A DNA stretch of 64,000 nt, from positions 2,545,001-2,609,000 of the forward strand of contig NZ_CP005083.1 in the NCBI RefSeq assembly GCF_001563265.1, in the 5' to 3' direction. The first letter of the stretch is position 1. Every line of letters begins with the position of its first letter. The stretch is from Sphingobium sp. TKS (GTDB lineage: Bacteria > Pseudomonadota > Alphaproteobacteria > Sphingomonadales > Sphingomonadaceae). The position numbers and the translations under genes were made by a program. The notes under the pieces were generated by a model, which made no database searches, had not been told where the DNA came from, and worked only from the letters and a program-made list of their open reading frames with translations. This document shows, in pieces, positions 504 through 22,570 of this stretch.

Positions 504-2477
504 CTACAAGTCGATCCCGTCGCCAGGATCGAGCGACGCCTGCCGCGCCATCCCCTGCATCCGGCGGCGCACAGCCGCCTGCCGCGCCGCGTCGTCCTGC
601 TCGTCCTCCACGATCGCAAACTCTTGGCTCGGTGTGGCCGGCGTCTCCGGCGCAATCGCGACGTGCTCGGGCAGCTCGGGCTCGCGGCGCAGACCGCCAT
701 TGGCGGCGTCTTCCGCATCGCGGACGATGCGCGCGACCTGCTTCGGGTCAGCGGCCGCCTGCCGCCCGGTCCAGTCGTCCGCTCGCGCCTTGACCGCCTC
801 CGGGTTCGGCGCCTGGGTGATGCGTTCGGACAGCCGGCGGTCCTGAAAGTAGCGCGCCTTCTTCGCGCGGATCGGGTGGACGCCCGCCACCATGACGATC
901 TCGTCGTCGGGCGGTAGCTGCATCACCTCGCCGGGCGTGAGGAGCTGGCGGGCGGTCTCCGACCGCGACACCATCAAATGCCCGAGCCACGGCGACAGGC
1001 GATGCCCGGCGTAGTTCTTCATCGCCCGCATCTCGGTTGCCGTGCCGAGCGCGTCCGACACGCGCTTGGCAGTCCGCTCGTCGTTGGTGGCGAAGCTCAC
1101 GCGGACATGGCAATTGTCGAGGATCGCGTTATTCGGGCCGTAAGCCTTCTCGATCTGATTGAGGGACTGCGCGATCAGGAACGCCTTGAGCCCGTAGCCC
1201 GCCATGAACGCCAGGGCGGACTCGAAGAAGTCCAGCCGGCCGAGCGCGGGAAACTCGTCGAGCATCAACAGCACGCGATGACGGTTGCCTTTGGGCGTCA
1301 GCTCCTCGGTCAGCCGGCGTCCGATCTGGTTGAGGATCAGGCGGATCAGCGGCTTGGTGCGCGCTATGTCGCTGGGCGGCACGACTAGGTAGAGCGTGGC
1401 CGGTCGCTCGCCCTCGACCAGATCCGATATGCGCCACTGGCACGCCCGCGTGACCTGCGCGACGACGGGATCGCGATAGAGCCCGAGGAACGACATGGCG
1501 GTGCTGAGCACGCCCGATCGTTCGTTGTCCGACTTGTTCAGCAACTCGCGCGCCGCGCTGGCGACGACCGGATGGACGCCGGCTTCGCCGAGGTGTGGCG
1601 TCGCCATCATCGCCGCCAGCGTCTGTTCGATTGTGCGGGAGGGGTCCGACAGGAAGCCCGCGACGCCGGCCAAGGTCTTGTCGGGCTCGGCATAGAGAAC
1701 ATGAAGGATCGCGCCGACCAGCAGCGAGTGCGAGGTTTTCTCCCAGTGGTTTCGGCGCTCCAGGCTGCCTTCGGGATCGACCAGCACGTCGGCGACGTTC
1801 TGCACGTCGCGCACCTCCCACTGGCCGCGCCGCACCTCTAGTAGCGGATTGTAGGCCGCCGATTCCGCATTGGTCGGGTCGAAGAGAAGCACGCGGCCGT
1901 GCCGTGCGCGGAAGCCGGCGGTCAGCGTCCAGTTCTCGCCCTTTATGTCGTGAACGATCGCCGAGGCCGGCCAGGTCAGCAGCGAGGGCACGACCAAGCC
2001 GACGCCTTTGCCCGAACGGGTCGGCGCAAAGCACAGCACATGCTCGGGGCCGTCGTGGCGCAGATAGTCGCGCGCGAGCCTGCCGAGCACGACGCCGTTC
2101 GGCCCCAGCAACCCGGCAGCATGAACCTCGCGATCGGTCGCCCAGCGCGCCGAGCCGTAGGTCTCGGCGTTTCTCAGTTCACGCGCGCGCCACACCGACA
2201 TCCCGATCGCCACGGCGATCGACGCGAACCCGCCCGATGCGGCGATGAACGCGCCGGTCTTGAAGATGTCCGGGGCATAGGCGTCGAAGCTGAACCACCA
2301 CCAGAAGAAAGCCGGCGGCGGATAGACGCGCAACCCGAACGCCTCGAACCAAGGCGGCCCAAGCTCGGGCTGGTAGGCGAGCGCGGCGGCGGTCCACTGC
2401 GTCGCGCCCCACACCCCGGCGAGCACGATCAGAAACACGATGATGATCTGGCCCCAGAGGATTTTGGTCGCGGACAT
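504..2477 (-). CDS. traG: Type IV secretion coupling protein TraG/VirD4
   Basis: A 657-residue inner-membrane ATPase that brings the relaxase-DNA complex to the conjugative secretion channel. Two N-terminal membrane segments are visible (about residues 7-32 and 75-95). The Walker A motif APTRSGKGVG is at about 151-160, followed by conserved VirD4 core motifs, and a Walker B-like LLMLDEFPALG lies past residue 400. Length is normal for the family. It sits 15 bp downstream of the relaxase gene and just upstream of the CopG-like regulator, the usual order in Tn4371-like elements. Confidence 0.95.
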   Translation of the reverse strand: MSATKILWGQIIIVFLIVLAGVWGATQWTAAALAYQPELGPPWFEAFGLRVYPPPAFFWWWFSFDAYAPDIFKTGAFIAASGGFASIAVAIGMSVWRARELRNAETYGSARWATDREVHAAGLLGPNGVVLGRLARDYLRHDGPEHVLCFAPTRSGKGVGLVVPSLLTWPASAIVHDIKGENWTLTAGFRARHGRVLLFDPTNAESAAYNPLLEVRRGQWEVRDVQNVADVLVDPEGSLERRNHWEKTSHSLLVGAILHVLYAEPDKTLAGVAGFLSDPSRTIEQTLAAMMATPHLGEAGVHPVVASAARELLNKSDNERSGVLSTAMSFLGLYRDPVVAQVTRACQWRISDLVEGERPATLYLVVPPSDIARTKPLIRLILNQIGRRLTEELTPKGNRHRVLLMLDEFPALGRLDFFESALAFMAGYGLKAFLIAQSLNQIEKAYGPNNAILDNCHVRVSFATNDERTAKRVSDALGTATEMRAMKNYAGHRLSPWLGHLMVSRSETARQLLTPGEVMQLPPDDEIVMVAGVHPIRAKKARYFQDRRLSERITQAPNPEAVKARADDWTGRQAAADPKQVARIVRDAEDAANGGLRREPELPEHVAIAPETPATPSQEFAIVEDEQDDAARQAAVRRRMQGMARQASLDPGDGIDL

Positions 2478-2492: not shown

Positions 2493-4253
2493 TCAGATGC
2501 CGAGGCCGCGCTTGCGGCCGAGCGTCCAGTCGATGCCGCCGCCGGCGCGGACGACGCCGGACACCTGACGGCCGAGTTGCTGTTCGAGGGTGCTGGCCCA
2601 CGGCACGAGCCTGAAGCCGAGGCCGTCGTCGATCATGGCGAAGCGGCCGGAGGCGAGCGCGAGACGCTGGCGCACGATGCCGGCGATCTTCTCGCCGGAC
2701 GCGGCGGGGCGATAAGCAAGGCCGGTCTCGCCCGCGATCTTCGCGCCAACCGCGTCCAACTCGCGCTTTCGCAGCGTGTCGAGCATCCCGCGCTCGAACA
2801 CCGTCCGCTCGCCGAACCGGCGCGCGAGCCCTTCCTTGACGAGATGGTCGGTTCGCGCGTCCATCGCGCGTCGCACCTCCGCGCCAAACCCGCCATCCGC
2901 GACACTCGCGCCGCGCTCGATCAGCCGGTGGTCGAGCCAGGTCGCGCCGGGCGCCTTTACCTGCGCGGCGAGGTCGAGGTCCGACCGCGTGGCGAGCATC
3001 AGCGTCAGCTTCTCCTCGCCCGGCCGCCCGATCGCACGCAGCTCGACGATGCCGCCGAGCTTCGGTGTGTGCTCCAGCGCCTCGACGCCGGGCAGCCGGA
3101 CATGGTGGGTGCGGCCATCGGTGCCGTCGATCACGGCATAGGCCGTGCCGATCAGTTCGTCGTGCAAGCCCTTGTCGATCAGCCTGCCCGCGATCGGCTT
3201 CTCGGGCGCGCTGGTGACGACGGCATAGCTATCGAGCGGCCGGTCCTGACCATGCTCGCGGAGCGCCGCGCCGATCGTGCGGATAATGTCGCCGCGCGTG
3301 CCCAGCTCGCGCAGCTTGGCCGCCGCGCCTTCGGCAACCGCCCACTCGCCCGGCTCGCCCTGCGCGGCGAGCCCCATCGACTCCAGATGCTGCAACCGCC
3401 CGACCATCAAGCGGCGGAGGCGCGGATCGTCCGGGCCGGGGCGCTCGGGCCGCAGGTCGATCACGCCCAGCTCGTCGGCCGAGCGTTTGATCTCGGTATC
3501 GAGCCGGGTCCAGCGCTCGGCCGCCACGTCGCGTTCGAGCGTGCGCTGAACCTCATGCTCGGGCTTCGGGCCAAGTTCGGCCTGCGCTAGTTCCTCGGCG
3601 TTGGAGCGCAGGTTGTGGCTGATGTAGTCGCGCGCCATGACGAGATCGGCGCCGGTGTCGGTCACGCCGCGCACGAGCAGATGGACATGCGGGTTGTCGG
3701 TGTTCCAGTGATCGACCGCGACCCAATCGAGCCGCGTCCCCAGGTCCGCCTCCATCTGGCGCACGAGGTCGCGGGTATATTCGCGCAGGTCCGTCAGCTC
3801 GGCCGCATCCTCGGGCGAGACGATGATGCGAAAATGATGCCGGTCGTCATTGCAGCGATCGGCGAAGCCGCGATCGTCGGCGTCGTCGCCGGCCGCATCG
3901 AACATGCGCGTCGGCGAGCCGTCGCGGGTGACGCCCTCTCGCTTCAAGTAGGCGACATGCGCGGACAGCGGCGCCATGCGGTATCCGCCCCGGCCGCGGT
4001 GATTAACGGGCAGCGCCTTCACCAGCACCCGCCGGCCCGATCCGAACAGTCGGCTGCGCGCGAATGCGGTGCGGCCCCGGCCGAAGTTGGACTGGCCGCG
4101 GCGGGACGGCCCGCTCCAGGCGCGGCGAGGGTTGCCGCCGCTCATGGCGGCGGCGCGCAGCACCTCGGCGACTAGGCCGCGGGCGTTGCGGCCCTGCGCC
4201 TTGCTGCGCTTGGCCTTACCCGGCCGGACGCGGAAGTCGCTGTCCTCGCTCAT
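2493..4253 (-). CDS. VirD2-like relaxase (DUF3363-containing)
   Basis: A 586-residue relaxase expected to nick oriT and pilot the strand through the TraG-coupled channel. The relaxase core occupies about residues 70-200. It includes the conserved HHFRIIVSPEDA stretch near 139-150 and the metal-binding DNPHVHLLVRG motif (HVH at about 189-191). Tyr91 and Tyr102 are candidate nucleophiles. The C-terminal half matches the DUF3363 arrangement of alphaproteobacterial relaxases. The N-terminus is very basic. A candidate oriT lies immediately upstream of its start. Confidence 0.92.
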   Translation of the reverse strand: MSEDSDFRVRPGKAKRSKAQGRNARGLVAEVLRAAAMSGGNPRRAWSGPSRRGQSNFGRGRTAFARSRLFGSGRRVLVKALPVNHRGRGGYRMAPLSAHVAYLKREGVTRDGSPTRMFDAAGDDADDRGFADRCNDDRHHFRIIVSPEDAAELTDLREYTRDLVRQMEADLGTRLDWVAVDHWNTDNPHVHLLVRGVTDTGADLVMARDYISHNLRSNAEELAQAELGPKPEHEVQRTLERDVAAERWTRLDTEIKRSADELGVIDLRPERPGPDDPRLRRLMVGRLQHLESMGLAAQGEPGEWAVAEGAAAKLRELGTRGDIIRTIGAALREHGQDRPLDSYAVVTSAPEKPIAGRLIDKGLHDELIGTAYAVIDGTDGRTHHVRLPGVEALEHTPKLGGIVELRAIGRPGEEKLTLMLATRSDLDLAAQVKAPGATWLDHRLIERGASVADGGFGAEVRRAMDARTDHLVKEGLARRFGERTVFERGMLDTLRKRELDAVGAKIAGETGLAYRPAASGEKIAGIVRQRLALASGRFAMIDDGLGFRLVPWASTLEQQLGRQVSGVVRAGGGIDWTLGRKRGLGI

Positions 4254-5779: not shown

Positions 5780-6325
5780 TCAGCGCCAGACAAGCGGCGC
5801 GTCGGGCGTGTCGCGGGTGAGGATCGGGATGGCATGGCCGAGCACGGTCGAGGCCAGCAGCGGACCGAAATAGCGACCGTCCATGCTGTCGGCGTGGTCG
5901 GGGTTGAGCATCAGCAGCTCGCCGGCGCGCAGCGTGCGGCAGCCTTGCCAGACCGGCAGTGGGCGGCCCCGGCCGTCACGCTGCCGGGCGACGACGACGG
6001 GCCGCCCATCCACGCTCACCACCGCGTTGATGCGGCACACGATCTGCCCCGGCCGCGCCGCGACATGCTTCAACAGCGGCACGCGCTCGCCGAGATAGCC
6101 GCGCTCCGCCAGCCACCGCGCCAGCGCCGGTGGCGGCGTCACGGCGACCAGTGTGTCAAGCGGCGGATCGCGCACCGGCTCGATACGATAAAGCCCGATC
6201 GGCGCGCTCGCGCTGGCGTTCCAGACGACGCGCGGCAGCGGATCGAACACCGCGACGCCGGCGAACGATGTGGCGAACAGCGAGGCGGCGGCGGCCGTCG
6301 CAACGGCCCATCCACGGCGCGTCAT
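5780..6325 (-). CDS. traF: S26-family signal peptidase, TraF type
   Basis: A 181-residue protein with an N-terminal membrane anchor (ATAAAASLFATSFAGVAVF). The serine of the NASASAPIGLY box and the lysine in PLLKHVAARPGQ form the Ser/Lys dyad of S26 peptidases. Plasmid TraF enzymes mature and cyclise pilin of IncP-type systems in the periplasm. NPDHADSMDGRYFGPL matches the conserved C-terminal box. Its start overlaps the stop of the DUF2840 gene by four bases, so translation is probably coupled. Confidence 0.92.
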   Translation of the reverse strand: MTRRGWAVATAAAASLFATSFAGVAVFDPLPRVVWNASASAPIGLYRIEPVRDPPLDTLVAVTPPPALARWLAERGYLGERVPLLKHVAARPGQIVCRINAVVSVDGRPVVVARQRDGRGRPLPVWQGCRTLRAGELLMLNPDHADSMDGRYFGPLLASTVLGHAIPILTRDTPDAPLVWR

Positions 6326-10461: not shown

Positions 10462-10761
10462 TCAGCGGGACCAAATCAGCGCATATTCGCCGGTGGTGTC
10501 GGTTTCGGACAGCGTGGCGTAGATCGGCGCCGGGAAGCTCGGATCGTCCAGCTTGACCGAGATGTAATCGCGGCCTTCGCGGCTGGTTTTCTTCCAGGCG
10601 GCGCCGATATCCATGTCGCCGGACTGGATGCGGAAGTCGGGGGACTTGTCGCCTTCCTTCTCGACCGGGCGAAGGGTCGCTTTGGCGTTGAGGGTGAGCG
10701 TCTTGATAACGCCGGTGAACTCGCCCTTGCTGTTGGCGGTGAAGGTGCCGATCGTAGCCAT
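10462..10761 (-). CDS. DUF736 family protein (copy 2)
   Basis: A 99-residue protein starting [19 protein letters not shown], the hallmark of DUF736. [19 protein letters not shown] matches the C-terminal core of copy 1 at 5408-5743, but the two are clearly diverged. ATG at 10761 has AGGAG upstream (10771 side); the longer frame is not supported. The function is unknown. In related elements one DUF736 gene is strongly expressed near the ParB/DUF932 genes, and a long structured leader precedes it here too. Confidence 0.92.
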
Positions 10762-11140
10762 GTCGCAATCTCCTACTTGCTCGGGCCACACCATCGCGGC
10801 CTCGATGGCTCGGCGTCGGCCGGGGCGCGATCGACCCCGCACCGCTTGCGGCTGCAACGCAGTGGAGGTTGGGCGGCGGCGGCTTTTTTGCTTCGCGATG
10901 CAAAGCCGTAGGCGGCGGAAAAAAGCTGGACGACGCCTTTGCGGGAGGGCGATCGGCTTCGGCCAGACAAGCCATTGGGGAGGCCGCTGGATGTCCGGCT
11001 CGGAAGTCAGGGAGTTTTGTATGACCGGCGACTATGTCGGCAACTCTGCCAACAGTCTTGCGCGATGTTCATCCTACGTTCCAAGGTGATTTAGCGATTC
11101 GACCGAAGGAGACCACGGAGGTTCGCAAAGGGAGGAGGAA
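10762..11140. other. 379-bp gene-free interval (divergent leaders)
   Basis: No credible gene is present. On the minus strand it would form a GC-rich 5' leader for DUF736, with T/A-rich patches (TTTTTT near 10887, AAAAAA near 10918) on either side of a CGCGATG-centred segment. The right part holds the ribosome site GGAGGAGGAA for the next gene. Promoters are not identified. Confidence 0.4.
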
Positions 11141-11143
11141 TTG

Positions 11144-11944
11144 GTGGCGCAACTGTTTTCGCAGGATCAGCTCGAAGCCATCGCTGGCGCGCTCGGCGAC
11201 ACTGAAACGGGACTCAAGGGGACTGAGATCGCGATGCTGATAGCGACATGTCAGATGACCGATCCGGGCGAGATTACCAAGCGGCACCGCATCTACAACG
11301 CCTTCGTCGCCAGCCAGAACGCCCGGCAGGACCGCACCCGCATCCTCGGCTTCATCCGCCATGCGATGAGGCCCGCCCGCTATAGCCGGGAGCCACACCG
11401 TTACGAGCCTATGCGCGCCAGTCTCAACCAGGCCCTAGCATTTGCCGGCCTCGTGGTTAGCGAAGCGGGAAAGATCGAAACCGTCGAGCAAGCGACCACC
11501 CCGCCGGAAGCGCAGCGCCGCGCGAAGGAATTGCGCACCGATCTGGAGACGCGCGGCGTTCACCCGGACGTGCTGCGCTTCTGCCGCGCTGAGCTGCTGG
11601 CCGATGACTATTTCCATGCGGTCCAGGAGGCGGTGAAAAGTGTCGCCGACAAGATGCGGGTCAGGACGGGTCTGTCAGATGACGGGGGAACGCTGGTGGA
11701 CCGCGTGCTGGGCGGCGATCCGCCGATGCTGGCGATCAATCCGCGCGGAACGGTGAGCGAGCGTAGCGAGCAAAGCGGCTTTTCCAATCTCGTCAAAGGC
11801 GTCTTCGGCATGTTCCGCAACACGACTGCCCACGAAGCGCGCATCCACTGGCCGATGGCCAAGACTGACGCCGAGGATCTTCTGACGCTCGTGTCACTTA
11901 TCCATCGTCGGCTCGACGCGACCTATATGCCGCCGCGTTCCTGA
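11144..11944 (+). CDS. TIGR02391-family protein, possible defence-linked gene
   Basis: A 266-residue protein (GTG start after GGAGGAGGAA; TTG at 11141 is an alternative). The C-terminal half has HPDVLRFCRAELLADDYFHAV, SVADKMR and the signature GVFGMFRNTTAHEARIHW followed by a helical end, typical of the TIGR02391 (Ymh) family. That family occurs in phages and defence-like islands, often as an abortive-infection-type helical domain. The biochemical function is unknown. It converges with the retron reverse transcriptase, leaving only five bases between stops, and belongs to the cargo block rather than the transfer module. Confidence 0.75.
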   Translation: MAQLFSQDQLEAIAGALGDTETGLKGTEIAMLIATCQMTDPGEITKRHRIYNAFVASQNARQDRTRILGFIRHAMRPARYSREPHRYEPMRASLNQALAFAGLVVSEAGKIETVEQATTPPEAQRRAKELRTDLETRGVHPDVLRFCRAELLADDYFHAVQEAVKSVADKMRVRTGLSDDGGTLVDRVLGGDPPMLAINPRGTVSERSEQSGFSNLVKGVFGMFRNTTAHEARIHWPMAKTDAEDLLTLVSLIHRRLDATYMPPRS

Positions 11945-11949
11945 TTGTG

Positions 11950-13686
11950 TCAGGGCGGCGGCGGATTGGCGGCGTAATCGTCTAGGACCGCAACGATGCG
12001 GTCGAGCAGGCCCGCGAATTTTGAGAAGTCGATCGTGTCTTTTTGCGGCTGCACGACCTTCTCGGCGAACCTAGCTTTCCCGTATTTTCCGGGTTCGTCG
12101 TGCTTCTTGTTGGGGTCGAACACTTTGCCGTCGATAACGGTCTTCAAAAGTGCAGGACCGAACGAGTCCTCAATGCAGCTCGTGCCTTTCGCGCCGATCT
12201 CCGGCGTTTTAATGAGATAGAGATTGGCGGCGAGACGGTAGAACGGGTCTGTAGAGGTTCTCGAAATATTGGGAGCGCCGAGATTTTTGGCGACGCTGAA
12301 GATATCCTTGGCACCATCGTCATTGTCGATCAGCCCGATGACGGGGTTGGGCAAAGGCCGGTGCCGGTAATGCTTGAGCGCGTCGGGATATTTCCGAATG
12401 AAGTGCAGGAGATCGCCCGCGCCATTGCCGATCTGTAGGACGTCATGGACCGTGCTCGAAAAATTCATGAACTTGAGCGCGGATTTGAACTTCCCTTTAT
12501 CCATTGCGCCAAGCTGCGGATGGTAGGCGGTAAGCTTCTCTATCGCAGCGCGCAGATAGATAGAGTCGGTCTTGCCCTCGGGAATGATAAGCGGTTTAGG
12601 CGCAACGACGAAATTTCGGTAAAATAGAAAGCGGATGTATAGCTTCCGCGTTGCCGTCGCCTCTTTCTTCTTGTCGATAGAGGACCGCGCATCGACCTGA
12701 TCGCGCACTTGATAGACGTAGCCCAGCATCCCTTGCAGCGGCGCAAGAGAGGTGGCGGGTTCCTGCATATCGGGATCGCCCGGCTTTCCGCCCGCCAGCG
12801 CGGCCGGGACAATGCGGTAATAAGTTCCACTGCCGAACAGTGACCAGCACATCGCGCGCACCGTGCGGTAGTATTCGGGTCGGATGTTTGGTTTCTCGTT
12901 GACGAGCAGCCCGGTCGCGACCTGCCGTGACCCACGATACTGCATCCGCGTCTTGGCCGGGTTCACATCAAAGCCAGCCTTGTCGATCTCCTTCAACAAG
13001 GCGGCGCCCAGCGCCCAATTATGCTCCGATCCCGGTATTGGGGCAGCGACATCGGCTGGGAACGCCTTGGCATTCGTGGAGAAAGTGATGTCGTCGGCAT
13101 AGCGCGAATAGGTGCATTTCTGCGCCTTGGCGAAGCGAACGAGCCGAATGTCCAGGAGATGCCCGACGACATTGGAAATGACCGGCGAACAGGGGCTGCC
13201 TTGGGGAAGAACGTGATCGTGACAGGCGATCTGCGCGATGAGGGTCGCCACCTTGGGATCGAGACCGAAGCGCTTGTCCTTGATGAACATACCGCGCACG
13301 CGACCGAAATTGATCGACGGGAAGAAATCCTTGAGATCGAGATTCAACACGTAACGCCGCCGCTTGTGGACCGCGGCGTTCGTCACGATGGATAGATGCT
13401 TGGCAAAACCATGCGAGAGCTGTCGGCGTGGCGCACCCGCCTTGTCGATGTCGGCCAGCGCCAGATAGAGGACATTGGCGAGCCGCCGTTGCAGGAGCTT
13501 CAGTTTAGGCGTGGGGGCGAGAATCTGCCTCGGCGTCCCGTCGCGTTTGGGAATAGTGAACGTGGTGTATTTCTGAGCGCTGGGAAGGTGATAAAGTAGA
13601 TAGGCGAGCGCTGCGGGCTTGTAGCCCAAGATCGCCGCTAGATCATCGAGCGACTTCGCCGCTTGCAGTTTCGCCAGACTTGACAC
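11950..13686 (-). CDS. Retron reverse transcriptase fused to a Toprim domain (Ec67-like)
   Basis: A 578-residue protein from a GTG start. Residues 1-340 form a retron reverse transcriptase. They show the retron-specific NAAVH motif (103-107), LDLKDFFPSI with catalytic Asp, QGSPCSP (162-168), YADD (196-199) and VATG (256-259) in the region that recognises the msr. Residues 360-480 match a Toprim nuclease/primase fold: IIPEGKTD with Glu370, and LIDNDDG with Asp454 and Asp456. This fusion is the Ec67-type retron layout, in which the effector is carried on the RT. Retrons act as anti-phage systems. An msr-msd locus lies directly upstream on the same strand. Confidence 0.92.
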   Translation of the reverse strand: MSSLAKLQAAKSLDDLAAILGYKPAALAYLLYHLPSAQKYTTFTIPKRDGTPRQILAPTPKLKLLQRRLANVLYLALADIDKAGAPRRQLSHGFAKHLSIVTNAAVHKRRRYVLNLDLKDFFPSINFGRVRGMFIKDKRFGLDPKVATLIAQIACHDHVLPQGSPCSPVISNVVGHLLDIRLVRFAKAQKCTYSRYADDITFSTNAKAFPADVAAPIPGSEHNWALGAALLKEIDKAGFDVNPAKTRMQYRGSRQVATGLLVNEKPNIRPEYYRTVRAMCWSLFGSGTYYRIVPAALAGGKPGDPDMQEPATSLAPLQGMLGYVYQVRDQVDARSSIDKKKEATATRKLYIRFLFYRNFVVAPKPLIIPEGKTDSIYLRAAIEKLTAYHPQLGAMDKGKFKSALKFMNFSSTVHDVLQIGNGAGDLLHFIRKYPDALKHYRHRPLPNPVIGLIDNDDGAKDIFSVAKNLGAPNISRTSTDPFYRLAANLYLIKTPEIGAKGTSCIEDSFGPALLKTVIDGKVFDPNKKHDEPGKYGKARFAEKVVQPQKDTIDFSKFAGLLDRIVAVLDDYAANPPPP

Positions 13687-13704
13687 CCCACCCCCCTAAT
13701 AGGT

Positions 13705-13840
13705 GGCTTACAGGCACTCCTATGTGTTCGATCGGATCGTCCGCTCAGCCGTAAAGCTGCAATAAGGGTAGATGGAAGCATCACTGCCTAACATCGGTGT
13801 CTTATATCGCGATGCGCGATAACAACTCTGCCTGTAAGCC
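13705..13840 (-). ncRNA. Retron msr-msd non-coding RNA
   Basis: On the minus strand the RNA opens with GGCTTACAGGCA (13840-13829) and closes with TGCCTGTAAGCC (13716-13705). These are perfect 12-base a1/a2 arms directly ahead of the RT gene (18 bases to its GTG). The base after a1 is G (13828) in the context GGCAG, matching the branching guanosine of Ec67 as I recall it. The next element, TATCGCG-CAT-CGCGATA, is a perfect msr hairpin. The segments GGCAGAGTTGTT and GGAGTGCCTG also resemble Ec67. The exact RT-DNA ends are not determinable. Confidence 0.85.
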
Positions 13841-13927
13841 TGCGGCGGTTCTTGTCCAAACTACCCGAAACTTCAAGGGTTGATCCGCGAGCCGGGCGGT
13901 GCCCGGCGAGCGGCGAGATCAAGCAAA

Positions 13928-13956
13928 GCGGCCGCGCCCGGAAAGGGCGCGGCCGC
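13928..13956 (-). terminator. Terminator hairpin after the ParB-like gene
   Basis: GCGGCCGCGCCC (13928-13939) and GGGCGCGGCCGC (13945-13956) form a perfect 12-base stem with a five-base loop, 63 bases past the ParB-like stop and before the retron RNA. A TTTTTT tract flanks the stem on the plus-strand side, so it may act in both directions. It isolates the retron from read-through. Confidence 0.7.
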
Positions 13957-14018
13957 GATTTTTTGGCCGACGATGAAAGGGAAGCCGGGACCGTTGGCGC
14001 GGCCCCGGCCTAATGCCG

Positions 14019-16088
14019 CTATTCGGCGGCAACGGCGTAGGAGACTTCGCCGTCCTCCGCTTCGGTATCGGGAGCCTCCGCTTCGGACGGCTGCCCCACG
14101 GCCCCGGCATCCTCGGCCTCGGCGGGCGCGGGCTGCTCCGGCTTCGGCGTCCGCAGCACGGCGGGAAGCCAGCCGGTTCCGGCCAGAAGCTGCTCGGCGG
14201 CTTGCGCCATGTCCGGCTTCTTCATGTCCGCGATACGGCGCGCGGCGTCCTCCGACACGCCTTCGGTCACGGCCTCGACGATATGCGCCTTGGTGACGCG
14301 GCCAAGGTAGCTGTCCATAGTGGGCGTCCAGTCCTTCGCCACGTCCAACGCCAGCGCAGTCGCCAGTCTGTCCGCCGTTTGCAGCGTCCGGGGCTTGCGA
14401 TCCCACGGCAGGCGCAGCGCATTGACGGTGCGGGACGCGCAATGCGCCAGCAGCGCCACCCGCTTCTCGTCGTCCAGCCCGACGATGAAGCCCCACAGGT
14501 CCGCCACGTCACGCGGCATCCGCTCGGCCCAAGCCTCGCGCGCCTCGTTCGCCTTTGCGGCCAGCGGGGTGTCCTCGATCCCATCCGCATGACTGCCAAG
14601 CGGCGTCACGGTCGGACGAACCTCAAGGCAACCGGCCTCTGCGTAGCTGTAGAACAGTTGTGCCGTGAGCGTGTGGGTCAAGGCGATCAGCGCCAGATCG
14701 GCCCGCTCGCCAAGCGCCACGCGCAAGGCAAGGGTCCGGTGGGCGGACAGGTCGCGGGTAAGGCTGTCAGAAATCGGCTTGCCCAGTTCCTCGTCCTCTT
14801 CCTCGATCTCCTGCATGTCCTCGTCGTCGCCCTCGGCCTGCTCGTCCTCGACCGTCTCCCGGTCGATGGCTTCCGCTTCGTCCTCGGGCTGCGGATCGGC
14901 CAGCACCTCGTCCTCGGGGCGGACGAAACCGCGCTCAATCCTGACCGTGCCGTCATGGTGAAGCACCACGAACGCCCCGCCATGTGCGACCACGTTGGGA
15001 TCGTAAGCATGGCGCTTGGCGGAAATGGCGTCGATCTCGTCGGACACCTCCTCCAGCTTCGTCGCCACGCCCTCGGGCATCTCGTCATAGGACGAATAGC
15101 CTTCGGCAAGCCCGTCATGCTCGGTGGACAGCGTCTCCAGCCGCGCCTCGTCTTCGTCGGTCAGGGCGATGGTTTGCGGATAGAAGCGGCGCATCCCGTG
15201 GGCGTGGGGATAGTCGATATGCGCCTCGGCCCATTTCCAGCCCTCGGCCTGCACCTGCTCGGCAACCTCCCGCAGCTTCTCGGCGGCGAGCAAATCGAGC
15301 AAGCCGGCATCCTCGAAGAACCCGCCCCGGTCCTCGCTGAACAGGTCACGGATGATGTTGCCGCCCGCCTCGATATAGGCGTCGGCCCCGACGAACACCG
15401 CGCGGCGATCATCGGCGGGCACGTTGGCGGCGGTCATATCGCGCCGGATAATCCACGGCTCGCGATTGTGATGCAGCCCCTCGAACACCTGCTCCTGACG
15501 GGCATGGTCCTCGGTGATCGCGAAGGCCATCAACTGGTCCAGCGTAAGACCGTCCTCCCGATAGACCTGCAACAGCTTCGGGCTGACCGCACCCAAGCGA
15601 AGCCGCTGCTTCACCACGCCAGCCGACACGCCGAACCGCGCGCCGATCTCCTGCGCACCCCAACCCTTGTCGTTGGAAAGCTCCGCAAACCGCTCGAACT
15701 GGTCGGCGGGGTGCATCGGCGTGCGGGTCACGTTCTCGTCCAGACTGATCTCGGCGGGGTCGTTCGCCGTGTCCAGCCAGCAGCGGACAGGCTCGGACTT
15801 CTTGATCTGCTTACGCTTGGCGCGCAGCAGCATCGCCAGCCTGCGGCCTTCGCCAGCGGTGACGAGGTAATAGCCGGTCGGCGTCCCGTCCTCCTTGGCC
15901 TCTGGCTCGATAACAAGGTTCTGGATCAGCCCCTTGTGCTGGATCGACGCGGCCAGCGCTTCGATAGCGGCTTCCCCATGCGGCACCTTGCGGGCATTGC
16001 GCGGGGACTTCTTGAGCTTGGCGAGTGGCACGAAAATCTCAATGCCCGACACAGGCTCGGCGGCTGCGGTTTCGGTAACAGCGTTCAT
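14019..16088 (-). CDS. Large ParB/Spo0J-like nuclease-fold protein of the element
   Basis: A 689-residue ParB-type protein (ATG at 16088 with AAGGAGAA upstream). Residues 15-125 have the ParB N-terminal fold (VPLAKLKKSPRNARK, GLIQNLVIEP, YLVTAGEGRRLAML). Residues about 145-200 hold the helix-turn-helix region (QFERFAELSNDKGWGAQEIGARFGVS). A long extension follows, with a very acidic stretch around residues 390-440 and an Ala/Glu-rich tail. Proteins of this type and length are standard in Tn4371-like and alphaproteobacterial elements, where they probably aid maintenance or transcription. No parA is adjacent. Confidence 0.9.
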   Translation of the reverse strand: MNAVTETAAAEPVSGIEIFVPLAKLKKSPRNARKVPHGEAAIEALAASIQHKGLIQNLVIEPEAKEDGTPTGYYLVTAGEGRRLAMLLRAKRKQIKKSEPVRCWLDTANDPAEISLDENVTRTPMHPADQFERFAELSNDKGWGAQEIGARFGVSAGVVKQRLRLGAVSPKLLQVYREDGLTLDQLMAFAITEDHARQEQVFEGLHHNREPWIIRRDMTAANVPADDRRAVFVGADAYIEAGGNIIRDLFSEDRGGFFEDAGLLDLLAAEKLREVAEQVQAEGWKWAEAHIDYPHAHGMRRFYPQTIALTDEDEARLETLSTEHDGLAEGYSSYDEMPEGVATKLEEVSDEIDAISAKRHAYDPNVVAHGGAFVVLHHDGTVRIERGFVRPEDEVLADPQPEDEAEAIDRETVEDEQAEGDDEDMQEIEEEDEELGKPISDSLTRDLSAHRTLALRVALGERADLALIALTHTLTAQLFYSYAEAGCLEVRPTVTPLGSHADGIEDTPLAAKANEAREAWAERMPRDVADLWGFIVGLDDEKRVALLAHCASRTVNALRLPWDRKPRTLQTADRLATALALDVAKDWTPTMDSYLGRVTKAHIVEAVTEGVSEDAARRIADMKKPDMAQAAEQLLAGTGWLPAVLRTPKPEQPAPAEAEDAGAVGQPSEAEAPDTEAEDGEVSYAVAAE

Positions 16089-16473
16089 CACACTTCTCCT
16101 TCAAAACCACACACACCCCGGAATGGGGTGGGCGGCGAAAGCGACCGGCAGGCCCGCCGGCGGAGCCGGGCAGCATCCGCAGGACCGGAACGCAGAGGAG
16201 GTAAGCGCGCCTCGCGCGCGTTGCGGCCCGGCGCGGCGGGCCTAAAGGGAAGCGACGCCCACCCCATCTCGGGGAGTGCAACGACCAACAATACGATCGG
16301 GCCGGCGTAGCCCTGGCCCGATCTCCGCAGCATTGGAAAAGCTGAAATCCGCAGCGGCGGATTTATCAATCGGCGCGAATGCGCCTGCGGGGAGTTGCGG
16401 GGTGTCCCCGCAGAGGGGGTAGCGGGAGACACTCGGCTCCCGCTCAGGGGGAGACTTCCCCCTCCTCAAGATC
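16089..16473. promoter_or_regulatory. Structured leader upstream of the ParB-like gene
   Basis: This is 385 bp without a gene. ATGGGGTGGGCG (16123-16134) and CGCCCACCCCAT (16256-16267) are perfect 12-base arms enclosing about 120 bases of GC-rich sequence, immediately 5' of the ParB ribosome site. Three further hairpins lie at 16396-16463. This suggests a folded 5' leader or attenuator; promoters are not resolved. Confidence 0.45.
16396..16463. repeat. Cluster of three consecutive hairpins
   Basis: Three perfect stem-loops follow one another. TGCGGGG/CCCCGCA spans 16396-16412 with a TGT loop. AGCGGGAG/CTCCCGCT is at 16421-16428 and 16437-16444. AGGGGG/CCCCCT is at 16446-16451 and 16458-16463. 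They sit between the ends of the ParB leader and the phosphoesterase gene. They may terminate the phosphoesterase transcript or form part of the leader. Confidence 0.6.
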
Positions 16474-16996: not shown

Positions 16997-17245
16997 ATGG
17001 CGGTAATGACGATCCGAAACATCGACGACGCGATCAAAAATCGCCTTCGTCTGCGCGCGGCAATGCACGGCCGGTCGATGGAAGACGAAGCGCGCGACAT
17101 TCTCCGATCGGCGCTTTCGACAGAAATCCCGCGCCCTCGCAATTTAGGCCAGGCCATCAACGAACGCTTCGGCGAGCTGGGCGGAGTCGATCTGCCTGAC
17201 ATTCGGCGTGAGCCGATTCGGCAGCCGGTGGACTTCGGCGAATGA
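16997..17245 (+). CDS. FitA-type ribbon-helix-helix antitoxin
   Basis: An 82-residue antitoxin. MTIRNIDDAIKNRLRLRAAM then GRSMEDEARDILRSAL is the FitA/Arc-type DNA-binding segment, and the C-terminal tail (PDIRREPIRQPVDF) is the part that would occupy the toxin active site. ATG at 16997 is preferred because GGAGG lies eight bases upstream; an upstream ATG at 16985 overlaps that site. The stop overlaps the toxin start (ATGA), the usual coupled arrangement. The complex is expected to repress its own promoter. Confidence 0.93.
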   Translation: MAVMTIRNIDDAIKNRLRLRAAMHGRSMEDEARDILRSALSTEIPRPRNLGQAINERFGELGGVDLPDIRREPIRQPVDFGE

Positions 17246-17664
17246 TCGTTCTCGACACCAACGTCATCTCTGAGCTGATGCGGCGCGAGCCTGACCCGAG
17301 GGTCATGGCGTGGATTGCTGAGCAGCCAATGGCGGGCGTGTTCACGACGACGCTGACGCAGGCGGAAATCTTCTACGGGCTGGCGCTACTTCCCGAGGGA
17401 CGCCGGCGCGACGATCTGCTCGCCGCAGCACGGCCGATGTTCGACGTCGATCTGGCAGGGCGCGTCCTGCCGTTCGACACTGAGGCGGCGCTTGCCTTTC
17501 CTGAGATCGCTGCCGGGCGGAAACAGAGCGGCAAACCGATCAGCCAGATCGACGCGCAGATCGCCGCCATCGTCCGGTCGCGCGGAGCGCGGCTGGCGAC
17601 TCGCAACGTCGCCGACTTCGCGGACTGCGGCATCACGGTGGTCAACCCGTGGGGCGAGCCATGA
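17242..17664 (+). CDS. FitB/VapC-type PIN-domain toxin
   Basis: A 140-residue PIN-domain ribonuclease. MIVLDTNVISELMR supplies the first catalytic Asp, TLTQAEIFYG the acidic Glu, ISQIDAQIAAI and TRNVADFADCGITVVNPW the later acidic residues. Length and sequence match FitB-like VapC toxins. Translation is coupled to the antitoxin through ATGA. On an integrative element such a pair typically stabilises inheritance. Confidence 0.94.
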   Translation: MIVLDTNVISELMRREPDPRVMAWIAEQPMAGVFTTTLTQAEIFYGLALLPEGRRRDDLLAAARPMFDVDLAGRVLPFDTEAALAFPEIAAGRKQSGKPISQIDAQIAAIVRSRGARLATRNVADFADCGITVVNPWGEP

Positions 17665-18016: not shown

Positions 18017-19642
18017 ATGACCGTGCCGCTACGCGCCGCCCTCTATCTGCGCGTCTCGACGGCGCGGCAGGCCGAGCACGACGTCTCCATTCCCGATCAG
18101 CGCAAACAGGGCGAAGCCTATTGTCTCTCGCGCGGACTGGAACTGGTCGATACGTTCGTGGAGGCAGGCGCATCCGCCACCAACGACCGCCGGCCCGAGT
18201 TCCAGCGCATGATTGAGGCCGGAACGAGCAAGCCCGCGACATTCGACGTGGTTGTCGTCCACAGCTTCTCGCGATTCTTCCGCGACCATTTCGAGCTGGA
18301 GTTCTACGTCCGCAAGCTCGCCAAGAACGGCGTGAAGCTGCTCTCCATCACGCAGGAGATGGGCGACGATCCGATGCACGTCATGATGCGCCAGATCATG
18401 GCGCTGTTTGACGAGTATCAGTCGAAGGAGAACGCCAAGCACGTCCTGCGCGCGCTCAAGGAGAATGCGCGTCAGGGCTTCTGGAATGGCTCGCTGCCGC
18501 CGATCGGCTACCGCGTCGTCGCTGCCGAACAGCGCGGCGCGAAGACCAAGAAGAAGCTGGAGATCGACCCGCTTCACGCCGACACGGTGCGGCTGGCGTT
18601 CAAGCTGGCGCTGGAAGGCGACGGCACGTCCGGCCCGATGGGTGTCAAAACGATCACCAAGCATCTCAACGAGAGCCGCATCTTCACCCGCGACGGCGGG
18701 CGCTGGGGCATCGGCACGGTGCATCGGATGCTGACGCGCGCTACCTATGCGGGGCGGCACGAGTTTAACAAGCGCGGCAAAAGCAAAGAATTGAAGCCTG
18801 CCGCCGAGGTTATCGCTGTCGAGGTTCCAGCGATCATCGACCAGGCGATGTTCGATGCGGTGCAGGCGCATCTGAAGGCGCGCAGCCCGAAGGTCGCGCA
18901 TCCGCAAGTCGTCGGAGGCCCGACGCTGCTAACGGGGCTGATCCACTGCGGCAAGTGTGGCGGGGCGATGACGATCCGCACCGGCAAGAGCGGTCGCTAT
19001 CGCTATTACACCTGCTCGATGAAGGCGCGACAGGGAGCGACCGCGTGCGAGGGCATGACCGTGGCAATGGAGCGGCTGGACGATCTCGTCGCCAATCATC
19101 TGGCGGAACGGCTGCTTGATCCCGATCGACTTGAGGACGTGCTGTCGGAAGTTCTGGACCGCCGACAGGACCGATCCGACCGGCGCCGCGAGCATATCGC
19201 CGAGCTTAACAAGCGCGCTGCGGAGACGGAGCTGCGCTTGAAGCGGCTTTATGACGCAATCGAAAGTGGAGTCGCCGATCTCGATGATCCGGCGCTCAAG
19301 GATCGCATCGACGGATTGAAGGCGACCCGCGATCAGGCGCGAGCGGACGCCGAGCGCGCCTCAGCGTTGCTAGTAAGCTCGGCGCAGCAAGCGATCACAC
19401 CGACGATGTTGCGCGACTTCGCCTCGACCGCGCGGCAACGTATCCGACTGGAGGGCGGTGGCTACCGGCGCGATCATCTGCGTGCGCTCGCGCAGCGGGT
19501 GGAAGTCGATCGCGAGGAAGTCCGCATCATGGGCTCGAAGAGCAACCTATTGCGGGTGCTCGCCGCTAACGGCGTAGCCTCGGCGGCGGGCGGAGTGCCC
19601 ACCGTTGTTCCGAAGTGGCGGACAGGGTGTCCCCGAAACTAG
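18017..19642 (+). CDS. Large serine recombinase (integrase/excisionase of the element)
   Basis: A 541-residue recombinase. The resolvase domain has YLRVSTARQ with catalytic Ser14, VVVHSFSRFFRD and a conserved MRQIMALFDEYQS. The recombinase domain follows (IGYRVV..., HRMLTRATYAGRHEFN). A zinc-ribbon (CGKCGG...C...C, about residues 315-345) and a coiled coil (about 390-450) complete the layout. It probably mediates element integration. The last codons (KWRTGCPRN) coincide with a 14-base sequence repeated at the tRNA-Ser end, so the native C-terminus may have been altered by integration. Confidence 0.93.
   Translation: MTVPLRAALYLRVSTARQAEHDVSIPDQRKQGEAYCLSRGLELVDTFVEAGASATNDRRPEFQRMIEAGTSKPATFDVVVVHSFSRFFRDHFELEFYVRKLAKNGVKLLSITQEMGDDPMHVMMRQIMALFDEYQSKENAKHVLRALKENARQGFWNGSLPPIGYRVVAAEQRGAKTKKKLEIDPLHADTVRLAFKLALEGDGTSGPMGVKTITKHLNESRIFTRDGGRWGIGTVHRMLTRATYAGRHEFNKRGKSKELKPAAEVIAVEVPAIIDQAMFDAVQAHLKARSPKVAHPQVVGGPTLLTGLIHCGKCGGAMTIRTGKSGRYRYYTCSMKARQGATACEGMTVAMERLDDLVANHLAERLLDPDRLEDVLSEVLDRRQDRSDRRREHIAELNKRAAETELRLKRLYDAIESGVADLDDPALKDRIDGLKATRDQARADAERASALLVSSAQQAITPTMLRDFASTARQRIRLEGGGYRRDHLRALAQRVEVDREEVRIMGSKSNLLRVLAANGVASAAGGVPTVVPKWRTGCPRN
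19616..19629. repeat. Attachment-site repeat, left copy
   Basis: TGGCGGACAGGGTG is identical to 25376-25389, where it forms the encoded CCA end, discriminator and acceptor strand of tRNA-Ser. It overlaps the 3' end of the serine recombinase gene. It is interpreted as the att duplication flanking the second element. Confidence 0.65.
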
Positions 19643-19709
19643 CGTCCCGATGCATCCGTCAGCATTAAAATAAGCGCGAAAAATAGGCGATAATCGGCTC
19701 TATCCCACT

Positions 19710-19783
19710 CCGTTCCTGTCCCGTTCTATCCGGTTGCGTTCCCATAAAACCGGCGTATTATTGGGGAACGGATTTGGGAACGG
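19710..19783. promoter_or_regulatory. Iterated CCGTTCC-type sites before the integrase
   Basis: CCGTTCC (19710-19716), CCCGTTC (19720-19726), CGTTCCC (19737-19743), GGGGAACGG (19763-19771) and GGGAACGG (19776-19783) form a run of direct and inverted copies of one short motif within 75 bases upstream of the integrase start. They may be integrase arm-type or excisionase/repressor sites. Confidence 0.5.
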
Positions 19784-19794
19784 AGACGCCAGCC

Positions 19795-21039
19795 ATGCCG
19801 CGCAAGCTCAGCAACGCCCTTACGCCTTTGGCGGTCAAGAATGCGAAACCCGGACGCCATGCGGACGGGGGCGGGCTGCACTTGCTGGTGAAGGAAACCG
19901 GCGCGCGGTCATGGGTCTATCGCTTCATGCTCAAGGGCAAGTCGCGCGACATTGGCTTGGGCGCGGCTGGACAAGGCGGCATTTCCCTTGCCGATGCCCG
20001 CACGGCGCGCGATGCCCTGCGGCTCAAGGTGAAAGCCGGAATTGATCCTCTGGAGGAACGCCAGCGAGAGGCCACAGAGGCGCTTGCAGCGGCTCAGGCG
20101 GCAGCGATAGCCGGAATGACGTTCAAGGCCGTGGCAGAGGCTTATATCGGCGCGAATGAGACAAGCTGGCGCAATGACAAGCACCGGCAGCAATGGCGCA
20201 ACACGCTGGCCAGCTACGTCTATCCCGTCATGGGAGAATTGCCTGTTGCCGAAATTGGCACGGCGCATGTGCTGAAAATCCTTGAGCCGATCTGGCAGGA
20301 CAAGCCGGAAACTGCCAGCCGCATCCGGGGGCGGATTGAAACCGTGCTCGATGCCGCCAAGGCGCGCGGATACCGGGAGGGCGAAAACCCTGCCCGCTGG
20401 CGCGGCCATATCGCGCAAATCCTGCCGCCCCGTTCGCGGCTTACGCGCGGCCATCACAAGGCTATGCCATATGAGGCAATCCCGGCGTTCATGGGGCAAC
20501 TGCGGGAGCGGGAGGCAATGGCGGCGCTGGCGCTGGAGTTTGTCATTCTCACGGCCACGCGCACAAGCGAAGTGCTAGGGGCAACGTGGGACGAAGTCGA
20601 TTTGGACAAGGCAATCTGGACCGTGCCAGCGTCCCGCATGAAGGCGGGCAAGGAACATCGCATTCCCCTGTCCTCGCGCGCTGTCGAGATTCTGGAGGCC
20701 GTGAAACCGCTGGGCAAGGCCAGCCTGTTTCCAGCCGACAAGGGCGGCAAGCTGTCCACTATGGCAATGTCGATGCTACTTCGCCGCATGAAGCTGGAAT
20801 GCACCGTTCACGGCTTCCGTTCCGGCTTCCGCGATTGGGCTGCCGAATGCACCGGCTATGCCCATGAAGTCTGCGAAATGGCGCTGGCCCATGTGATCGG
20901 CAACAAGTCCGAAGCGGCTTACCGGCGCGGCGATCTATTCGACAAACGGCGGCGGCTTATGGCCGATTGGGCAACCTATTGCGCCAGCGACGGCGCGGCT
21001 GGTGCCAAGGTTTCGCCAATCCGGGGGGCAGCGGCATGA
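19795..21039 (+). CDS. int: P4-type tyrosine integrase (DUF4102/phage integrase)
   Basis: A 414-residue integrase. The N-terminal arm-binding domain (LTPLAVKNAKPGRHADGGGLHL) is of the DUF4102 type. The catalytic residues are visible: Arg in TATRTSEVLGATW, HRIPLSSRAVEIL, HGFRSGFRDWA (His-x-x-Arg), and the LAHVIGNKSEAAYRRGDL block with His and nucleophilic Tyr. ATG at 19795 with GGAG upstream is chosen over TTG at 19774. P4-type integrases commonly target tRNA 3' ends, consistent with the tRNA-Ser repeat. Its stop overlaps the next start. Confidence 0.95.
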   Translation: MPRKLSNALTPLAVKNAKPGRHADGGGLHLLVKETGARSWVYRFMLKGKSRDIGLGAAGQGGISLADARTARDALRLKVKAGIDPLEERQREATEALAAAQAAAIAGMTFKAVAEAYIGANETSWRNDKHRQQWRNTLASYVYPVMGELPVAEIGTAHVLKILEPIWQDKPETASRIRGRIETVLDAAKARGYREGENPARWRGHIAQILPPRSRLTRGHHKAMPYEAIPAFMGQLREREAMAALALEFVILTATRTSEVLGATWDEVDLDKAIWTVPASRMKAGKEHRIPLSSRAVEILEAVKPLGKASLFPADKGGKLSTMAMSMLLRRMKLECTVHGFRSGFRDWAAECTGYAHEVCEMALAHVIGNKSEAAYRRGDLFDKRRRLMADWATYCASDGAAGAKVSPIRGAAA

Positions 21040-21377
21040 GCTACTATGACACATGGGAGCGGCGCGCACATGAGGCCGCTAGGCCGCACATGGCGAGAGT
21101 CGCCAAGGCGCGGCGATCACTGGCCCGGCTTGATAAGGTGGCGCTGGAGGCCGTGGCAGAGGCAGCTATCGCCATGCTGGACGAAATGACGGACCCGGAC
21201 GCAGATTGCTGCCTTGCCGGGGATGATGGCTGCGGCGCATTTTGGGCAGGCGAGCATTTCGGGATGCAATGGGGCAGCCAATGGGAGGGCGAAGCCGATA
21301 TTGCCCATGCGCCTGAATACGGGGCCGACCAACGCGAGATAATGGGCCGTTTCGGAGTCGCGTTCCGTGTGGACTGA
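21036..21377 (+). CDS. Hypothetical protein after the integrase
   Basis: A 113-residue protein starting in the integrase stop (ATGA). The family is not recognised. The N-terminal half is helical and basic (ARPHMARVAKARRSLARLDKVA); the C-terminal half is acidic with Cys and Trp (DADCCLAGDDGCGAFWAGEHFG). No membrane segment or signal peptide is seen. Tight coupling to the integrase suggests expression with it, but no function can be assigned. Confidence 0.65.
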   Translation: MSYYDTWERRAHEAARPHMARVAKARRSLARLDKVALEAVAEAAIAMLDEMTDPDADCCLAGDDGCGAFWAGEHFGMQWGSQWEGEADIAHAPEYGADQREIMGRFGVAFRVD

Positions 21378-21693
21378 CAGCGCCAACGAAGCCGCTGCCG
21401 TGTTGCCGTTCGCGCTCAAGGATCGCTGGATTGTCACGGTGGAAAGCGAGCGGCATTTCGTAAAGGTGCGCCATCGCACCCGCTGGTATGCCGTTGCGCG
21501 GCGCATAGGGCACGAGGAACGCCGCCATTGGTGCGCCAGCCGCGCGGACGCTCTGGGGATCGCAGAATACATGCGGGAGGCACATAGGGCGATGGCCGAA
21601 TACGAGCATTTCAAGACGCTCTATGACGCTGCGCCGGAGTGGAAGCGCGCGGAGGTGGACGCCTATTTGGATAGTCTACGGGGGCATGAATGA
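21367..21693 (+). CDS. Hypothetical protein of the small element
   Basis: A 108-residue protein from GTG at 21367, overlapping the preceding stop by 11 bases and the next start by four. Basic patches and alternating beta/helix character (DRWIVTVESERHFVKVRHRTRWYAVARRIG) are followed by a helical C-terminus (ADALGIAEYMREAHRAMAEYE). No family is recognised. Operon position is the main support. Confidence 0.6.
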   Translation: MWTDSANEAAAVLPFALKDRWIVTVESERHFVKVRHRTRWYAVARRIGHEERRHWCASRADALGIAEYMREAHRAMAEYEHFKTLYDAAPEWKRAEVDAYLDSLRGHE

Positions 21694-22451
21694 GCTTTGC
21701 CGATGATGCCGAATTTGCCGCATTCATCGGCAGGGATCACATGCTACCGGCAGTCACGCCAGAAGCCGTTGCCAGCGCCTTGGCAGGCTTCGCCCTTCCG
21801 CTGTCGCCGGGGAGGGATATGGACTGGCTGGCGATGGCCGTTAGGCGCTCGCTCGCCATTTCCTTGCCGAACATTACCGATGGCCCGGAACGGACTTCAA
21901 ATGCCGATATTCGCGGGGAACTGGAGCGGCTGGCAGCATTGACCGGGCAAACATGGCTGGAGCTATTCCAGTGCGATCATGCTGCCGACTCCCGGCTATG
22001 GGATCACGCTTGGCACCATTGGGACGGCGAAGGCGGGACCGATATTGGCGACGGCATGGTTATGGGCGAACCTTCCGATTATCGCCGTTTCAAGGCTGCC
22101 GTTGCCGAACTGGATTGGCTGGCCAGTTTCATGCGGGAAGCTGCGAAGGCAACCGAAAGCCAGCGAGGGCCGTGGCGGCAATCGGAGGAAAAGCGGCTCA
22201 GAGTGCAGCGCGGGCAATACCTGGCCCCGATCTATGAAGCCGCATTTGGCCAGCCCGTATCTGCAAACAACTTTCCAACAGATGCCCGGATTAAGGCACA
22301 AACGCCCTTCATGGACTTCTATGGCCGCATGGTGACGCTGGCGTTCGGCGCGCGTGAAACCGCCAATCTGACAGAGGTTGTGAAAGCGGCTTGCCAACTG
22401 CACCGGCAGCACCCGGCGGAATTTGCAGACGGCATAATTCCCGGCCTTTAG
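21690..22451 (+). CDS. Hypothetical protein, largest unknown of the small element
   Basis: A 253-residue protein beginning at an ATGA overlap. It is soluble, predominantly helical and Trp-rich (DMDWLAMAVRRSLAISL; DHAWHHWDGEGGTDIGDG; LDWLASFMREAAK). The C-terminal part, AQTPFMDFYGRMVTLAFGARE, is reminiscent of proteins carried next to integrases in alphaproteobacterial islands, but I cannot name a family. No catalytic signature is evident. Confidence 0.65.
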   Translation: MSFADDAEFAAFIGRDHMLPAVTPEAVASALAGFALPLSPGRDMDWLAMAVRRSLAISLPNITDGPERTSNADIRGELERLAALTGQTWLELFQCDHAADSRLWDHAWHHWDGEGGTDIGDGMVMGEPSDYRRFKAAVAELDWLASFMREAAKATESQRGPWRQSEEKRLRVQRGQYLAPIYEAAFGQPVSANNFPTDARIKAQTPFMDFYGRMVTLAFGARETANLTEVVKAACQLHRQHPAEFADGIIPGL

Positions 22452-22570
22452 TTGTGGGGGCGTAACTCTCCCCGATTGGGGCGGGAAAGAACCCCCATTT
22501 TGGCCAGCCGGTTAGCGGCATGTCCCTGCTTGGCCGCACTTGTCGCGGCGGACAGCAAGGGACAATTCCC

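Follow-up and report, generated by a model that had tools for sequence, protein, structure and literature searches.

A sphingomonad ICE that very probably carries a complete type I-C (Ec67/Eco2-type) retron as exchangeable cargo

The RT-Toprim gene and its ncRNA

The window analysed here (a 64,000-nucleotide stretch of the Sphingobium sp. TKS chromosome) encodes on its reverse strand a 578-residue protein with a GTG start, in which a reverse transcriptase (RT) is fused to a C-terminal Toprim domain, the single-protein arrangement of type I-C retrons, and a retron ncRNA lies directly upstream (Table 1). The top PADLOC model was RT-Toprim_I-C (715.8 bits, residues 1–574 of 578), NCBIfam retron_Ec67_fus ('retron Ec67 family RNA-directed DNA polymerase/endonuclease') scored 681.9 bits, well over its threshold of 450, and the best phmmer match among solved chains was the Ec67 protein (9i2f/9lm3), aligned over residues 2–571 (E 2.9e-106). 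The best PADLOC models of other types, RT-TIR_XII (333.6 bits, residues 4–284) and RT-protease XI (324.2 bits, to residue 332), likewise describe fused retron RTs, but their match is limited to the RT part and the effector domain differs. The motifs NAAVH, QGSPCSP, YADD and VATG, read by an earlier note on this DNA, are present at residues 103–107, 162–168, 196–199 and 256–259. A Pfam scan of the protein returned the RT only, with no Toprim match, so the Toprim half is assigned by full-length homology and residue correspondence. The core proposed for it, Glu370 and Asp454/Asp456, is invariant together with E506 in all 18 rows of alignment A1, which holds the window protein and 17 homologues (58–90% identical to it).

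Table 1 Features of the retron locus and its carrier, in window coordinates
Feature	Position	Strand	Basis
T4SS coupling protein	504..2477	-	domain scan
DUF3363 relaxase	2493..4253	-	DUF3363, 291 bits; Pfam Relaxase match just below cut-off
S26 peptidase	5780-6325		
DUF736 gene, slot flank opposite the ParB-like gene	10462..10857	-	Pfam scan
Retron cassette, segment absent from related ICE copies	11946..13924	.	backbone alignment breaks
RT-Toprim fusion gene, type I-C (Ec67/Eco2-type) retron	11950..13686	-	PADLOC, NCBIfam, phmmer
Toprim effector domain, ~residues 356-571; E370, D374, D454/D456, E506	11974..12621	-	Eco2 alignment, A1
Reverse transcriptase domain, ~residues 1-290	12817..13686	-	Pfam RVT_1 45-250, E 3.8e-20; A1
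Retron ncRNA (msr-msd), 136 nt from a1 to a2	13705..13840	-	hold-out covariance model R2, pair counts
a2 arm	13705..13716	-	perfect over 12 bases with a1
Predicted msd template, 75-nt msDNA	13718..13792	-	conserved G (Eco2 G52) to conserved A before GTGCC
msr hairpin, 7 bp, 3-nt loop	13805..13821	-	both-sided change in 6/7 pairs
Predicted branching guanosine (2',5' link to msDNA)	13828	-	invariant G after a1 in A2; finder required G
a1 arm	13829..13840	-	12 perfect pairs with a2; both-sided change in 11/12 pairs (31 distinct RNAs including the window's)
12-bp GC hairpin, ICE backbone	13928..13956	.	strong T-run on + strand
ParB-like ICE gene, one slot flank	14019..16091	-	NCBIfam ParB-type models, all below cut-off
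PIN-domain gene	17242-17664		
Large serine recombinase, right ICE end	18017..19642	+	

An RT tree agrees with the PADLOC, NCBIfam and PDB matches in placing the protein among retron RTs. The window's RT falls among the 27 RT-Toprim rows of 31, in a tree whose four other rows are all long-branch, which was built without labelled group II or DGR RTs and whose Toprim-fusion labels were assigned from the alignment. The RT-Toprim rows need two changes on this tree, not one, and one change suffices in 4% of 200 bootstrap trees (long-branch outgroups). Left out of the RT trees were L007, L008, L009 and L019 (without a usable ORF), together with L023 (interrupted frame), L054 and L055 (second tree). 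The RT-Toprim protein evolves under purifying selection: dN/dS is 0.099, 0.099, 0.049 and 0.047 against L011, L012, L013 and L014, and against L013 it is 0.042 for the RT and 0.040 for the Toprim part.

The RNA locus proposed upstream of the gene held in each of its parts: perfect 12-base a1/a2 arms, a G directly after a1 and a perfect msr hairpin. Upstream DNA was inspected for 39 RT-Toprim relatives, and all of them have a comparable a1/a2 stem there, located with a finder that demanded the G after a1 and rewarded GAG before a2, so that both features are partly imposed. The window's stem score (14.0) was reached by 4 of 1000 dinucleotide shuffles and, over all 40 loci, a locus's own score in 6 of 2000; among the 40 reverse strands five scored at least 13, the lowest observed value, and two reached 14.0. 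A single stem is thus weak evidence and covariation the stronger. The 40 upstream regions (window included) gave 31 distinct trimmed RNAs, after L017, L018 and L019 (partial or interrupted), L043 and L049 (short upstream DNA) and L004–L010 and L053–L056 (partial matches to the RT part) had been dropped. Over 19 pairs in these RNAs 96.6% of cells are paired, falling to 25–44% when slid by 1–3 columns; both-sided changes number 142 cells against 38.3 in shuffles (reached by 0 of 500), and 17 of the 19 pairs carry one against 13.5 in shuffles (reached by 9 of 500). Given no structure, RNAalifold returned 11 of the 12 a1/a2 pairs, all seven pairs of the msr hairpin and two further pairs, with compensatory change in 17 of the 20.

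The scan with a retron ncRNA model that the earlier note had proposed was made with a covariance model (R2) of 27 distant relatives including Ec67 (L041), from which the window, L011, L013 and L014 were held out. Its sole hit in the window at E ≤ 10 is exactly the ncRNA of Table 1 (79.5 bits, E 1.7e-17), which marks the RNA as of the Ec67 kind, and genome-wide no second hit appeared among the 150 of 434 first-look candidates that were scored. The likeness to Ec67 pointed out in the earlier note is also borne out, as the L041 RNA holds ..GGCAGATTTGTT.. and ..GGAGTGCCTG.., and its bases fit the Eco2 positions G15, A30-A31-U32 and A49-A50-U51-G52 given in PMC12405507. Rfam at gathering scores found only a single tRNA in the whole window, and at E up to 5 its seven matches within 13500–14000 were all below gathering, none from a retron family. 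Folded as a single sequence, the ncRNA region has a z of −1.57. No sigma-70-like promoter was found for the retron, with a test that is weak in alphaproteobacteria. Ec67-type identity is thus upheld by PADLOC, NCBIfam, the full-length Ec67 match and the ncRNA covariation alike.

The carrier ICE and its cargo slot

The window and the DNA to its left contain a relaxase, a coupling protein, T4SS genes, an integrase and an att-like repeat, which make the carrier a chromosomal ICE with a T4SS, a relaxase and a serine recombinase, in agreement with the earlier note's reading of it as an ICE. Immediately left of the window (L107) are genes with matches to TrbI, CagX (TrbG-like), TrbL, a TrbB-like T2SSE ATPase and a TraG/TrbE-type ATPase, the last narrowly missing the cut-off of its TrbE model. 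A 14-bp repeat, TGGCGGACAGGGTG, occurs in the last codons of the serine recombinase (19616–19629) and again at the 3' end of a tRNA-Ser gene (25376–25389); none of 100 window shuffles gave two matches. For the left end, a 15-mer search allowing ≤2 mismatches gave no match in the 40 kb preceding the window. A PIN-domain gene, of a kind typical of VapBC, is also present on the ICE.

Some further observations concern this neighbourhood. The 14-mer has a third copy in the genome at C1:1026125. Between the ICE end and the tRNA-Ser gene, the repeat bounds a stretch (19630–25375) with a tyrosine integrase gene at 19774–21039, so that there are apparently two elements in tandem at one tRNA-Ser gene. 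A second ICE copy of the same family, at C1:972000–1005000 (L092, L111), is retron-free and ends directly at a different tRNA-Ser gene, tRNA-Ser(gga). Left of the Trb genes lies an HMGL/DmpG-type aldolase gene (L107:5923–6954, + strand), and the ICE or its neighbourhood may have aromatic degradation genes on board.

That the retron is cargo, as the earlier note held, is borne out by related ICE copies that are retron-free, which place its borders near 11945 and 13925. On the right the alignment breaks at 13925 (G490, G466, G034) or 13927 (G475), with exceptions at 13976 in the genome's own second copy and 13883 in G457; on the left G034 resumes at 11945, just past the stop of a HEPN-type gene, and L013, where the HEPN gene is missing, breaks at 11947. 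The left border is therefore sharp and the right one good to some tens of bases. The HEPN-type gene (11141–11944, + strand; TIGR02391, PADLOC PD-Lambda-3_B) stands tail-to-tail with the RT gene, with 5 bp between the stops, and is separable from the retron, since the HEPN gene occurs alone in L089 and the retron alone in L013 and L095.

The retron had further been described as isolated by a terminator at 13928–13956. A 12-bp GC hairpin does stand there, but it belongs to the ICE backbone and its T-run is weak on the retron's strand, so the claim is upheld in part. A like hairpin occurs in 7 of 11 retron-free copies among those listed, and it is probably the terminator of the upstream ParB-like gene. 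Scanning for terminators gave 6 sites, where shuffles averaged 3.9 (sd 2.0), so that only this 12-bp stem stands out. Another hairpin, GCTCGCCGGGC-N-GCCCGGCTCGCG at 13886–13911 (− strand), recurs in the ICE family: exact matches number 31 and come from 21 of the 94 same-genus genomes (a reversed-pattern control had 0), two of them in the own genome, both in ICE copies. With ≤2 mismatches allowed, ten of the 19 slots have it 101–524 bp past the ParB-like gene, nine of these slots being longer than 1.1 kb, and 13 of the 19 copies have it at other places in the fetched DNA, several times about 100 bp past DUF932. This hairpin may be a terminator or a recombination site.

The ParB-like protein was found at E ≤ 1e-100 in 50 of 94 same-genus genomes (own included). 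We fetched the downstream side of 20 such places, 19 of which were long enough for the slot between this gene and DUF736 to be read, with lengths of 564–5114 bp (L102, measured to DUF932, is overstated). One of the 19 holds a relative of the retron (L095) and one the HEPN gene without a retron (L089). A cargo scan covered ten ORFs from five of the 19 copies: the L088 slot encodes an FMN reductase, an SBF transporter, an LMW phosphatase and an ArsR-type regulator, a set we read as a putative arsenic-type operon, and elsewhere there are HEPN and DUF5677 proteins (L091) and an Na/Pi transporter (L093). A defence-only hotspot was considered and rejected, the slot elsewhere holding arsenic-type, transporter and HEPN cargo. 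The related retron of L095 (genome G474) sits in the same slot, and some 1.18 kb of foreign DNA interrupts its RT after residue 30, so retron loss is tolerated there; an IS110-type transposase gene lies farther downstream.

Among related genomes 10 of 61 gave any match to the protein (E ≤ 0.001) and three a near full-length one (own included), and in a class-wide sample 6 of 385 genomes matched at 1e-60 (own included, three partial). Homologues numbered 6138 among 7999 scored candidates, and 'retron Ec67 family' appears among the NCBI names of the 120 that were listed. Of the 169 matched plasmid records 18 cover 80% or more of the query, six of the 18 being fetched as loci, and so does 1 of 51 phage records. 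The Sphingobium yanoikuyae protein P0006 (580 aa, 90% identical) already bears the name 'retron Ec67 family' at NCBI, and Sphingopyxis witflariensis (L011), Sphingomonas turrisvirgatae (L012) and a MAG (L013) have the same retron in the same ICE slot, L013 differing from the window in having no HEPN gene. A retron 87% identical (L014) comes from a contig assigned by binning to Trueperaceae (Deinococcota), whose fetched flanks show hardly any similarity to the ICE; this may be wide transfer or mis-binning, and the bin may be wrong. In open-licence PMC literature (titles and abstract starts, among the matches listed) no retron on a sphingomonad ICE was described.

Comparison with Retron-Eco2 and proposed action

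We regard the locus as very probably a complete type I-C retron that forms exchangeable cargo of a sphingomonad ICE. The copy is apparently intact and clearly represents a further example of an established retron type, not a new type. It shares with Retron-Eco2 (Ec67) the full-length RT-Toprim architecture, the RT and Toprim core residues, the order a1-G-msr hairpin-msd-GAGT-a2 and the conserved positions at which the msd starts and stops; it differs in its carrier, a sphingomonad ICE and not a prophage. Aligned over 557 residues with L041's Ec67 protein, the window protein shares 221 of them, and the Toprim halves are 31% identical. PMC12405507 names F46, R184, Y199/D201/D202, K245, R247 and S253 of Eco2 as important in msDNA synthesis or RNA contact: the first three sets are kept as F43, R181 and Y196/D198/D199, and K245, R247 and S253 are also retained. 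In the Toprim domain E374, D378, D460/D462 and E515 of Eco2 correspond to E370, D374, D454/D456 and E506, giving the type I-C catalytic set (E, DxD, metal B) except for S513 (metal B), which is a Cys in the window protein; the paper's K562 fell on an Asp in the Ec67 sequence used, and the comparison thus covers the metal set without the catalytic lysine. These residues make it a well-supported prediction that the window protein synthesises msDNA and has a metal-dependent Toprim nuclease.

Other positions have changed. The trimer-interface residues D331/R332/Y333 of Eco2, and also Q329, fall in an alignment gap, H281, T249 and R264 are replaced by Trp, Gln and Glu, and the basic Toprim residues K383, H387, K418, R555 and K557 by R, E, T, Q and Q. 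Given the gap at the trimer interface and the replaced basic contacts, the trimer and the mode of Toprim inhibition may differ from those of Eco2, and the resting complex may take another form.

In Eco2 numbering the branch lies at G15, to which G13828 is equivalent, the final template base at G52, and the DNA is 67 nt long (PMC12405507). A G occupies the G52 column in 30 of 31 rows, and all 31 have an A just before GTGCC. The span bounded by these two positions measures 67 nt in Ec67 (L041) and 58–87 nt across all rows, and the same count predicts an msDNA of about 75 nt for the window. The predicted msDNA folds no better than shuffles (z −0.35), as does the Ec67 control (z 0.04), in which the stretch is one base out of register.

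Retron-Eco2 is antiphage, with phage DenB as a trigger, RNase activity and an msDNA-mediated trimer (PMC12405507), and from it we infer for the window retron a like antiphage action, trigger and RNase activity, as well as the branching, msDNA length and complex. By this analogy a single transcript would carry the ncRNA first and then the RT-Toprim mRNA, a1 would pair with a2, and the RT would prime at the 2'-OH of G13828 and copy the msd template into a branched msDNA of about 75 nt, which with the protein would form an inactive complex. Damage to the msDNA by a phage nuclease or similar factor would then release the Toprim as a nuclease, probably acting on RNA, and the freed Toprim would halt the infected cell ahead of phage release. 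The 'functional' status of the unit, as the earlier note worded it, is indicated indirectly, by intact motifs and purifying selection.

Rival readings and conservation of the msd

A different nuclease target is the alternative we take most seriously, unlikely as it is: the effector could be a DNA nuclease or a tRNA-specific nuclease instead of a general RNase, as Toprim effectors vary (Gabija acts on dsDNA, Wadjet on plasmid DNA and PARIS on tRNA-Lys; PMC12405507) and the Toprim half is so diverged from that of Ec67; however, the Eco2 metal-binding residues other than S513 are kept and the Ec67 match spans the full length. We think it improbable that the retron works chiefly for the ICE, warding off competing mobile elements or acting as a stabiliser, instead of against phages. 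Its slot adjoins the ParB-like gene and the PIN-domain gene is on the same element, yet the slot elsewhere holds unrelated exchangeable cargo (the putative arsenic-type operon, HEPN proteins, the Na/Pi transporter), and the antiphage action reported for Retron-Eco2 (PMC12405507) also speaks for defence.

The split sister copy in G474 and the lack of a recognisable sigma-70-like promoter would suit a decayed or silent copy, but the ORF and ncRNA are intact, dN/dS is 0.05–0.10, and msd and msr are nearly unchanged where synonymous sites differ by 0.59–0.66, which makes decay very improbable. A group II intron or DGR RT beside a chance inverted repeat scarcely merits consideration: the NCBIfam model group_II_RT_mat does match weakly (45.3 bits against a cut-off of 300), but retron models score far higher, no DGR model and, at cut-off, no maturase model matched in NCBIfam, and the covariation across 31 distinct RNAs contradicts that reading. 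The antiphage type I-C retron remains our preferred reading, and it adds to a defence type of solved structure a clearly bounded ICE cassette from a distant host, for which close relatives and cassette-free ICE copies are natural controls.

The msd is under purifying selection. Relative to the window it has changed at 1 of 75 positions in L011, 6 of 75 in L013 and 3 of 74 in L014, where synonymous differences per site (pS) are 0.26, 0.59 and 0.66, with the proviso that synonymous sites measure neutral change imperfectly and that regulatory sequence may lie within the msd. This slow change beside strongly diverged synonymous sites makes the question of msDNA sensing directly testable. A tentative idea, which we hold to be possible though rather doubtful, is that selection in type I-C retrons acts on the actual sequence of the msDNA, beyond its presence or length, the msDNA being a sequence-specific sensor or decoy; if so, a bait specific to each ICE-borne lineage could name its phage trigger. 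Over 15 locus pairs the msd differs by 0.01–0.43 per site and synonymous sites of the same RT by 0.14–0.85. Within the window's clade (four pairs) the msd difference is about 7–20 times below the synonymous one, whereas in other clades the ratio goes down to about twofold, with 0.08 against 0.69 (L034–L040), 0.07 against 0.14 (L040–L050), 0.43 against 0.78 (L034–L025) and 0.40 against 0.85 (L003–L015).
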